This document shows, piece by piece, positions 34,812-44,418 of a stretch of 64,000 nt of DNA. The position numbers were made by a program, and so were the translations under genes. The stretch's first letter is position 1, and each line of letters opens with the position of its first letter. The DNA comes from Stratiformator vulcanicus (GTDB taxonomy: Bacteria; Planctomycetota; Planctomycetia; Planctomycetales; Planctomycetaceae). A model generated the notes under the pieces. It searched no databases and was not told the DNA's origin. It saw only the letters and a list, made by a program, of their open reading frames with translations. The DNA is taken from the NCBI RefSeq assembly GCF_007744515.1, contig NZ_CP036268.1, forward strand, positions 2,705,712 to 2,769,711, read 5' to 3'.

Positions 34812-35705
34812 TCACCCCTTTTGCCGATAGCGACGGCTCGCTTCTTCGAGCAATTTGCGCTCTGACTTCGTCAGGCTCGCTTCGCCCTGCTCGCTGATCT
34901 TGGCGAGCGCGGCATCGACCTTTGATTCCAAGTCGTCTTCGGCTTCGCGCTCAGCGGCGTGTTCCGGGTCATGGACACGCAACTTGGGCTGCCGCTTGAA
35001 CCTTGGGATCGGAATCCCTCGGGGTAGGCCGTCCGAAATCCGCCAACCGCTGCGCTGGTAAAGGAAGGCGAAGCCGACGCTCGCCAGCGATGCGATCGGG
35101 ACGACGTTCGCGATTCCATCCGGACTGGACAACTCGAACAATGCGGCCAACACGTTGCCCGCGACAAACAACCCGACCAGCCAGCGGATTTCGATCGGAA
35201 TAATGAAGAACAGCAGAATTTTCTGACGTGGAAAATGCAGCGCGTAGAGCGTGACGACGGCCATCACCGCACCGGTCGCCCCGTACATTGGCCGTCCGGC
35301 GTCGTAAGCAAGGCCGAATAAGAAACCGGTGATGCCCGTGATCAGGACAGTCGCGAAGAAGAAGGTCGCGTATTCCCGAGAGCCATACATGCCCTCAAGA
35401 GTGCGACCGAACCACCACAAAAACAGAAGATTGAAAATAATCTGGAGCGGAGCGCTGATTTCGTGACAGAACGCATAGGTGACCAAACGCCAAATTTGGC
35501 CGCCCAGGATGTCCGTGGGGGTCAGGTCCAACCATTGTTGGGCCAGAGGCGCGATCCCCTCCTGGATATTCTGTGACGTGAGAATTTGCAGGACAAACAC
35601 GCCGGCAATGAGCGCGATCAACCACTTCGTCGCCGGATCGGTCGCGAAGAAATTTGCACCGCCCTGCGTGTCATCGCGGAGATATTCGCGGTCTTCGATT
35701 CCCAT
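34812..35705 (-). CDS. Rhomboid-family pseudoprotease with C-terminal LT-SER-RYRQ module
   Basis: The 297-residue protein has rhomboid topology: WRLVTYAFCH, then LQIIFNLLFLWWFGRTLEGMYGS, about six membrane helices. The catalytic serine motif GxSG reads GATG (Thr144). The catalytic His of the sixth helix, in a motif like AHLGG, is Ser206 (IASLAS), and the other common His nearby is Pro203. Both members of the dyad are therefore missing, so proteolysis is unlikely. The cytosolic tail (about 236-297) is charged and ends in VDAALAKISEQGEASLTKSE then RKLLEEASRRYRQKG, a module also found at the end of the M50-like protein at 43149-44132. It may bind or chaperone membrane proteins as iRhoms and derlins do. 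Confidence 0.85.
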   Translation of the reverse strand: MGIEDREYLRDDTQGGANFFATDPATKWLIALIAGVFVLQILTSQNIQEGIAPLAQQWLDLTPTDILGGQIWRLVTYAFCHEISAPLQIIFNLLFLWWFGRTLEGMYGSREYATFFFATVLITGITGFLFGLAYDAGRPMYGATGAVMAVVTLYALHFPRQKILLFFIIPIEIRWLVGLFVAGNVLAALFELSSPDGIANVVPIASLASVGFAFLYQRSGWRISDGLPRGIPIPRFKRQPKLRVHDPEHAAEREAEDDLESKVDAALAKISEQGEASLTKSERKLLEEASRRYRQKG

Positions 35706-35896: not shown

Positions 35897-36787
35897 CTAG
35901 TTGATTCGCTCCGCAATTCGAGACGCCTCAACCGGCTGCGGGAGTTGGGTCGTCAGGTCACGATTCTCTTCGATGATGGCAAGCAATTGATTGTAGGCGT
36001 TGTGCACACTGAGTCGCAGGCCGGCGAGCTGTTCGGCTGCGGAGTCACGAGCCTCTTCCTCTGCAAAGATTGTCGCGATGAGCCCGTCAGCGAACTCCGG
36101 CGTTCTCTCGATCCGCTGCGCGCCGGGATTTCCGGTCAGGCGTTTTTCGAGATAGTCGAGGTGATCGTTGGCCTGAGCGACTTCAACTTCAGCTTGGGCA
36201 ACCTGTTCCTGCAAGGCCCTGTTGTCATCGGCCCGTTCCGCGATCCGGTCGCGCAGTTTATCGACGCGAGCCGGCGGCGCGTAAGGCGTGGTCTGCCAAA
36301 ATCGCCATTCGCCCTGCGGCCAAGACTGAATTTCTTCGGGAAGCGCGGTGAATGTTGGCCGGAAGCGAGAAACGCTCGCGTTCGCGACGACAAGCTCAAA
36401 TTTGCCGATGTATTCACTTGAGCCGTCCGCACCAACCGCGAATGCCTCGTACGTTGGGTTCGGTCCTCCCCGCCCGGTGCCAACACCGAACCCCTGATCC
36501 TGTCCCAACTGGGCCGTGACCAATCCGGTTGGCTGCTCGACATTCGTCGCCGGTGAGATGTGGGGATCGGACCAGTTGAGCTGAAACCGTGCGAACTTTG
36601 TTTCCAAGTCGCGGACGGCTCGCTCTTGCTTGGCGACCTGTTCCTCCAGCCCGGAGATCGACTGCTCAGCCTGCTTGACCTGACTCATCCACGAATTGCG
36701 AACGTTGATCAGTTTCGAAGTCAACAAGACTGCCGCAACGCCCAGACAGAAGGCGATTCCAAGCATGACTTTGCCGAGGACGTGCAT
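35897..36787 (-). CDS. Membrane-anchored coiled-coil protein
   Basis: The 296-residue protein has one N-terminal membrane helix (VMLGIAFCLGVAAVLLTSKLI), a coiled coil (about 35-70: VKQAEQSISGLEEQVAKQERAVRDLETKF), a beta-rich middle domain (about 85-165), then a second long coiled coil (about 175-290). No catalytic motif is visible. The design suggests a periplasmic or cytosolic structural protein in the envelope. It is upstream of the pseudo-rhomboid on the same strand, separated by about 190 bases. I recognise no characterised family. Confidence 0.75.
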   Translation of the reverse strand: MHVLGKVMLGIAFCLGVAAVLLTSKLINVRNSWMSQVKQAEQSISGLEEQVAKQERAVRDLETKFARFQLNWSDPHISPATNVEQPTGLVTAQLGQDQGFGVGTGRGGPNPTYEAFAVGADGSSEYIGKFELVVANASVSRFRPTFTALPEEIQSWPQGEWRFWQTTPYAPPARVDKLRDRIAERADDNRALQEQVAQAEVEVAQANDHLDYLEKRLTGNPGAQRIERTPEFADGLIATIFAEEEARDSAAEQLAGLRLSVHNAYNQLLAIIEENRDLTTQLPQPVEASRIAERIN

Positions 36788-43148: not shown

Positions 43149-44132
43149 TCAGCGATCGCCCTGTTGCCGATACCGCGCTGATGCGCGGCGCAATCGACGG
43201 CGCTCTGATTCCGTCAAACCACGTAGTCCGCTTTCGTGAACTTTCGACAGAAGGCGGTCGATCTCCTGTTCGTCGAGTGCATCTCGTTCTCGACGCCGTC
43301 GCTCTCGCCGTGTGCGGCGATCTCGGAGCCAGCGTTCCATGAAATTAGGCTGAGCCGTCGGCTCGCCCGCACGCTCTTGCTCGAGACTGGTGTATCCGGC
43401 TGAAAAATCGTACCCGAGAAATGTTTCGTCAAACGTTTCACTGTCGTCGCTGCGTTCCACTCGCGGCCGGTTGAAGAGCGCGAGGTAGCCGGAGATCGCC
43501 AAAGCCCAAAGTTGGCCACACGCCAGCGATGCAATCGCGAGTCCGATTGAAATCGCAAAACCGAAATGGTTTCGACGCGCCGGGACCGTCTTCACTTCAG
43601 GAAGGCGAACGGACAGCAGCTTGGCTGCATCGAGGGGCCGCGCGGGAATGAGGTTCAACAGCAACAGCAACCAGTTGACATGAAAATTGATCAGGCAGAC
43701 TTCCGTGAATCCGACTGACGATCCGGCCTCGATCGGGAAGGTGAACGGATTCAGGCCGTCTTGCCAGACACCTTCGTGCAACACGGTCGGCAGGAAGGCC
43801 ACAACGGCTAGCGAATGCACGACATAGCCGCCCATCGCAACGGCCAAACGGGAGACAATGGTCGGACCGCCTTCGATGCCAGACCCTTCGCCGCAGACAC
43901 CAAACGACAATTCACGGACGTATCCGCCGGTCAGCCGCGCCGCGAGTGCGTGCCCAAACGTATGCACGGCGACCCAGAGGGCGTAGAATCCGAAGAAAGC
44001 TAGGCCCATTGTGAACCCGGGCAGACGGATCACCAAAATGGGGAGCAACAGTACTAAGACCCAACTCAGCCGGATCGGGACGCCGAAGAGCCGACCAATG
44101 CCGAACGTCCAACCTTCGACGCGTTCATTCAT
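43149..44132 (-). CDS. Site-2-protease (M50)-like pseudoprotease with C-terminal LT-SER-RYRQ module
   Basis: The 327-residue multi-pass protein has M50 architecture. The zinc motif HExxH reads HTFGH (His57-Thr58-Phe59-Gly60-His61), so the catalytic Glu is missing although both His remain. A later NLIPARPLDAAKLL (Asp168) corresponds to the NxxPxxPLDGG site, keeping the third metal-ligand Asp. Zinc might still bind but hydrolysis is unlikely. The cytosolic tail is strongly basic (RDRRTRRERRRRERD) and ends LLSKVHESGLRGLTESE then RRRLRRASARYRQQG, very like the tail of the pseudo-rhomboid at 34812-35705. ATG 44132 is chosen; an earlier frame start at 44189 is possible. Confidence 0.83.
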   Translation of the reverse strand: MNERVEGWTFGIGRLFGVPIRLSWVLVLLLPILVIRLPGFTMGLAFFGFYALWVAVHTFGHALAARLTGGYVRELSFGVCGEGSGIEGGPTIVSRLAVAMGGYVVHSLAVVAFLPTVLHEGVWQDGLNPFTFPIEAGSSVGFTEVCLINFHVNWLLLLLNLIPARPLDAAKLLSVRLPEVKTVPARRNHFGFAISIGLAIASLACGQLWALAISGYLALFNRPRVERSDDSETFDETFLGYDFSAGYTSLEQERAGEPTAQPNFMERWLRDRRTRRERRRRERDALDEQEIDRLLSKVHESGLRGLTESERRRLRRASARYRQQGDR

Positions 44133-44418
44133 GAGAATGGTCTGAAGTGATTCGAGTGAGGATTCCGTCGAACGCGACCTGACTCCCACATGCCGTCTCG
44201 CCGTATTATAAATTTAGTCTGCGGACCGACCCTGTTCAATCGGGTGGTTGTCTCCGAAACCGCGAATTGAACCAATGTCGCAGCCGCAGCCCCAGATTTT
44301 CTTGACGAAACTTCGATGACGAATTCAACCGAGATCGTCGGCAACTCCGTTCGGCGTTGGGTTTCTGCACGCTTGGTTGACCTCAGACAAATACTGAAAC
44401 TTCTGCTCGAAAGCTCTC

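Follow-up and report, generated by a model that had tools for sequence, protein, structure and literature searches.

A planctomycete rhomboid homologue without its catalytic dyad, from a family in which catalytic loss recurs

Introduction

Is a bacterial rhomboid homologue without the residues for proteolysis a protease gene in decay, or is it retained for a function other than cleavage? Rhomboid pseudoproteases, e.g. the iRhoms and Derlins, have been studied almost wholly in eukaryotes. The question is raised by a gene in a stretch of 64,000 nt of the genome of Stratiformator vulcanicus (contig NZ_CP036268.1), the whole of which is called the window below. A first-pass annotation had described the gene product as a rhomboid homologue that has lost both catalytic residues and has acquired a cytosolic tail.

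Results

The gene and its predicted fold

The gene under study is the following.

34812..35705, minus strand: gene for a rhomboid-fold pseudoprotease of 297 aa (open reading frame, Pfam, AlphaFold2 model, and structure matches)

The reading frame extends from an ATG to a stop codon and contains no internal stop. The Pfam family Rhomboid (PF01694) matches residues 69-204 with an E-value of 7.7e-19; the score of 68.7 bits lies above the cut-off of 22.6. An AlphaFold2 model, built with 69 orthologues, has a mean pLDDT of 89.8 and predicts six transmembrane (TM) helices (residues 24-44, 86-107, 109-133, 144-157, 173-193, and 202-219), after which two helices (247-273 and 280-296) cover the tail. 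The domain match and the predicted six-TM fold are those of the Rhomboid superfamily. When the model was compared with known structures, GlpG entries came out on top (Z 18.8, rmsd 2.4 over 162 residues), followed by iRhom1 (Z 16.5) and Derlin-1 (Z 15.1); Foldseek matched GlpG with an E-value of 1.7e-6. A phmmer search of the solved structures with the window protein returned GlpG proteins and one chance match, and nothing else.

Replacement of the active site

Active site residues were assigned by alignment with 155 orthologues, the dyad being judged from sequence position only. They are listed together with the WR motif, and GlpG numbering is used for the reference columns.

35274..35276, minus strand: Thr144 (codon ACC), at the column of the catalytic Ser201
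35088..35090, minus strand: Ser206 (codon TCG), at the column of the catalytic His254
35442..35444, minus strand: Gln88, at the column of His150; the oxyanion-site His is lost
35430..35432, minus strand: Asn92, at the column of Asn154, which is kept
35487..35492, minus strand: Trp72-Arg73, the WR of loop L1, present in 22 of 22 dyad-less orthologues

The alignment confirmed the loss of both catalytic residues and the retention of the Asn in helix 2, as initially annotated. Two further replacements had been missed, i.e. Gln88 at the position of His150, and Ser209, which occupies a column that is Gly in every intact orthologue of the alignment of 156. The GxxxG of TM6 is cut down to SxxxA. Gly142 is kept, and TM4 of the model begins at residue 144. 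Residues 196-216 contain no substitute His. In comparison with active rhomboid proteases (MEROPS S54), Thr144 and Ser206 stand in for the Ser of TM4 and the His of TM6, and Gln88 for His150. The loss of the catalytic residues is well supported.

The GlpG variant S201T shows no cleavage even at a large enzyme excess, and the hydroxyl of its Thr faces His150 and Asn154, away from His254 (PMC3093617). Since this exchange alone inactivates GlpG, and the window protein also lacks the equivalents of His254 and His150, proteolysis by the rhomboid mechanism appears very unlikely from the sequence and the published mutant. This agrees with the early doubt that Thr144 could be catalytic without a His.

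An ancient and mostly active family

Rhomboid homologues were present in all 59 relatives searched. A family search at E <= 1e-20 found a homologue in 158 of 170 genomes, including 129 of the 130 good genomes, and most genomes have one copy of the orthologue gene. The Ser, the His, His150, and Asn154 are all kept in 134 of the 156 aligned orthologues, so that His150 and Asn154 are present in 134 of 134 intact sequences. The remaining 22 are without the dyad. The active site seems to be lost as a unit, because 21 of these 22 also lack His150; the Asn is found in 18 of them. Sampling across the phylum added 37 orthologues, of which 36 have both the dyad and the tail. From the genome counts and this sample we conclude that the family is ancient, mostly active, and now and then inactivated. 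The one exception in the phylum-wide sample, L299 (genome G208), lies outside the class; its dyad, helix-2 motif, and GASG are all gone, and its tail is kept.

The replacements differ among the dyad-less orthologues (Asn/Glu, Asn/Asp, Ala/Pro, and so on), and the nucleophile column of those other than the window protein mostly contains Asn, Ala, or other residues. The Thr/Ser pair is not conserved among relatives, a point that had been raised for checking; it is the loss that recurs, with varying replacements. There are relatives with an intact dyad that are 44-49% identical to the window rhomboid. The window genome, which is the sole member of its genus in the sample, encodes three other rhomboids (L001-L003), all with intact motifs.

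In genus g5 (L040/G004, L152/G183, and L153/G182), the genome search returned a rhomboid match interrupted by one in-frame stop. The reading frame at the loci themselves has no stop across the TM core and the tail, and the start or the N terminus seems to be altered.

Repeated loss and purifying selection

A phylogenetic tree was computed after removal of the catalytic columns. The dead state requires six changes on this tree, five of which are forced by well-supported branches. A single origin of all losses was considered, and a clade of all dead sequences was rejected (AU p = 9.9e-6). A loss shared by the window rhomboid, L016, and genus g34 was not rejected (p 0.31, AU test). L016, which belongs to another genus and is also dead, is the nearest row to the window rhomboid in the tree (SH-aLRT 43 in the full and 92.6 in a reduced tree); therefore, the dyad may already have been lost before the two genera diverged. 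The end branch of the window rhomboid has a length of 0.84 changes per site.

In genus g34, all 15 sampled members are dyad-less and form one clade (SH-aLRT 97). Its closest pairs have dN/dS values of 0.03-0.09 at dS values of 0.37-0.74, comparable to those of intact-dyad genera (0.04-0.15 in most pairs, up to 0.33 in one genus); these values come from g34 and the intact genera, and the window lineage has no close congener. The dyad-less genus g34 is under strong purifying selection. Relatives with intact dyads had been named beforehand as a possible sign of recent decay. Such relatives exist at the identities given above, but recent decay is unlikely because the nearest row, L016, is dead as well and a whole dyad-less genus is under strong purifying selection.

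Conserved ends

Both ends of the protein carry conserved elements.

35682..35705, minus strand: N-terminal motif MG--R-Y, residues 1-8, kept in 22 of 22 dyad-less orthologues
34830..34925, minus strand: DUF6576 tail, residues 261-292 (Pfam); together with the preceding helix modelled as two helices

The six tail residues D264, L267, K269, G274, E282, and L286 are kept in all 22 dyad-less orthologues, and MG--R-Y and WR are likewise intact in all of them. The invariant columns of a 69-row alignment are M1, W72, L267, K269, G274, and E282, none of which is catalytic. The N-terminal motif, often MGIxxRDYxRD, has a conservation on a par with that of the tail.

DUF6576 (PF20216) scored 28.5 bits on the rhomboid in the genome search, with a cut-off of 27.3; when the window reading frame was searched alone, the score was 24.6 bits, slightly below that cut-off. 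The tail had been taken for an addition to the inactive form, which is wrong: it is ancestral, and active orthologues carry it too. Only two proteins of the window genome are above the DUF6576 cut-off, i.e. the rhomboid and the product of 43149..44189 (see below). In 40 relatives, all 73 DUF6576 matches fall on the rhomboid (40) or on an M50 protein (33), and 28 of the 40 have exactly one tailed rhomboid and one tailed M50 protein. An open-access literature search for DUF6576 found no papers.

A second tailed protein

The second protein with the tail is also predicted to be related to an intramembrane protease.

43149..44189, minus strand: site-2-protease-like (M50) protein with a DUF6576 tail and a broken HExxH (Pfam, model, and structure matches)
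43950..43964, minus strand: HTFGH, residues 76-80, in which Thr77 replaces the catalytic Glu (alignment with orthologues)
43179..43289, minus strand: DUF6576 tail of this protein, residues 301-337 (Pfam)

The two tails in the window are 50% identical over 38 residues. The model of the M50-like protein (pLDDT 86.8) has the predicted fold of mjS2P (Z 19.7) and SpoIVFB (Z 13.5). In contrast to these site-2 proteases, the window copy has HTFGH, LDAA in place of LDGG, and the DUF6576 tail. HExxH and the Asp are kept in 44 of 50 M50 orthologues. In five others (L095, L099, L110, L118, and L121), the motif is also lost, in different ways.

The states of the rhomboid and the M50 protein were compared in 49 genomes, of which 36 were live/live, 7 dead/live, 5 live/dead, and 1 dead/dead. 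A joint loss of activity was rejected, as the single genome with both proteins dead is about what is expected by chance.

Neighbourhood

Directly upstream of the rhomboid gene lies the following gene.

35897..36787, minus strand: upstream partner gene, 296 aa, with an N-terminal TM anchor and a coiled coil (read from the sequence)

Its product has no Pfam match above the cut-off. Of the 155 orthologue loci, 70 carry a homologue directly upstream of the rhomboid gene, and live as well as dead loci are among them. Where a family locus has 700 nt or more of flank, the homologue is found there on the same strand in 61 of 110 cases. It is present at 16 of 16 dead family loci besides the window, a number that is confounded by descent, as 15 come from one genus. 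Many intact loci lack the pair, as do the loci outside the family.

The distance from the rhomboid gene to the M50 gene is 7.4 kb in the window and 4.5-7.2 kb in three other genera, within a conserved block. The order of the block is rhomboid, coiled coil, CxxCxxCC protein, hisS, HD-GYP, M50, and TPR. It is found whole or in part in genomes G020, G007, and G009, with a dead rhomboid in G020 and a live one in the other two.

Discussion

The explanation that we favour, with a probability of roughly 0.55, is that the rhomboid fold has been retained as an adaptor or holdase, which, by analogy with known systems, would bind membrane clients and pass them on via its cytosolic ends. The inactive protein would have descended from the ancient planctomycete orthologue family, most members of which are still active. 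Its six-helix fold probably still binds TM segments of membrane proteins, and the MG--R-Y motif and the helical DUF6576 tail would attach it to a partner in the cytosol or in the membrane. The most plausible candidates are an AAA protease such as FtsH, proposed by analogy only, or some partner that the DUF6576-tailed M50 protein uses as well. Clients would be delivered through the putatively cytosolic ends, and cleavage would be an accessory function, the loss of which selection has repeatedly tolerated.

An adaptor is the simplest reading because the ends and Trp72 never vary, unlike the active site, and because the gene persists where catalysis has been lost. Since cleavage was lost from this ancient gene several times in related bacteria, with the rest of the protein conserved, it is probably the non-cutting role that counts. 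Two points weigh against an adaptor: the TM6 GxxxG is reduced to SxxxA, and most orthologues keep the dyad, so that the majority of lineages clearly benefit from proteolysis.

Several known systems can be compared. GlpG of E. coli or H. influenzae shares the six-TM fold, the WR in L1, the TM4 glycine frame, and the helix-2 Asn; in contrast, the window protein has replacements of Ser201, His254, His150, and one Gly of TM6, has the DUF6576 tail in addition, and is without the N-terminal domain of GlpG. Bacillus subtilis YqgP (GluP), likewise a bacterial rhomboid, presents MgtE to FtsH, for which its protease activity is not needed (PMC7231995). The adaptor function is thus demonstrated for YqgP and proposed by analogy for the window protein. 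YqgP itself is an active protease, and its adaptor role depends on an N-terminal cytosolic domain, whereas in the window protein TM1 is preceded by about 23 residues, the dyad is absent, and the tail is of another kind. The Derlins (Derlin-1, Der1, and Dfm1) also have a dyad-less rhomboid fold with the WR kept. Dfm1 recognises clients via its WR and GxxxG motifs, and Derlins recruit Cdc48/p97 via a cytosolic SHP box (PMC12615303). Derlins are eukaryotic proteins. iRhom1 and iRhom2 have a rhomboid fold without the dyad as well. In the model of the window protein, however, TM1 starts at residue 24, so there is no long cytosolic N terminus, and the TM1-TM2 loop (residues 45-85) is too short for an iRhom homology domain. 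The initial comparison with iRhoms and Derlins stands as far as a pseudoprotease role, which is the best reading, is concerned; the closest functional precedent is the YqgP-FtsH pair, and the predicted fold is nearer to GlpG.

A wider proposal, which we put forward tentatively, is that DUF6576 is a dedicated cytosolic docking tail that couples two unrelated families of intramembrane proteases, the rhomboids and the site-2 proteases, to one planctomycete partner. Docking and client holding would then be under the strongest selection. Either family would have discarded cleavage repeatedly and independently, and both would have done so in the window genome.

It is possible, though unlikely, that the protein is an iRhom-like regulator, which would draw clients away from active rhomboids, or compete with the M50 protein for a partner that binds the tail, and would thereby inhibit or steer proteolysis. 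The restriction of the tail to the rhomboid and the M50 protein in the 40 relatives, the proximity of the two genes within a conserved block, and the active rhomboids still in the cell are compatible with such competition. However, the M50 copy in the window is itself broken, the losses in the two families are not associated over the 49 genomes, and the tail is found on intact orthologues too, so that inhibition cannot be its general role.

Decay of a protease gene, with the dyad and the function gone and the gene on its way out, has a low probability. Intact dyads in relatives at 44-49% identity would fit, and the three other rhomboids with intact motifs make redundancy possible. Yet the reading frame is full-length and every core residue of the tail and the N terminus is kept in spite of 0.84 changes per site, a branch length at which stops are expected in an unconstrained gene. 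The dead state of L016 and the dN/dS values of g34 also argue against decay.

At a similarly low, marginally smaller probability, the protein could be a dedicated chaperone or anchor for the single-TM coiled-coil protein encoded at 35897..36787, rather than a general adaptor. The upstream homologue at 61 of 110 family loci and at all 16 other dead ones suggests that the pairing outlives catalysis, but many intact loci, and those outside the family, do not have the pair, co-transcription alone may explain the adjacency, and the 15 loci from one genus mean that the independent dead events are few. Residual or alternative catalysis with Thr144 as nucleophile and another base is highly improbable: Thr144 does place a hydroxyl group at the nucleophile position, and Asn92 and Gly142 are retained, which would speak for it, but GlpG S201T is inactive even with His254 (PMC3093617), TM6 has no His, the equivalent of His150 is Gln, and most other dyad-less orthologues have Asn, Ala, or other residues at the nucleophile column.

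We thus return to the adaptor or holdase as the favoured explanation. For bacterial rhomboid pseudoproteases, the open-access literature yielded eukaryotic cases and YqgP, and no prokaryotic family in which the dyad has been lost repeatedly and the gene retained. Rhomboid pseudoproteases as such are already known, mainly from eukaryotes; judged by this literature, a bacterial family with recurrent retained loss appears to be new. The family bears on the question of how a protease becomes a pseudoprotease. That the adaptor function came first, as the origin of pseudoproteases, was proposed in the YqgP work (PMC7231995). As active and inactive orthologues occur in related genera, with several switches between the states, this idea can be tested by comparing orthologues in similar cells. 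The tail, which in the genomes searched is found exclusively on the rhomboid and on one other family of intramembrane proteases, points to a shared partner, and this partner could be isolated.
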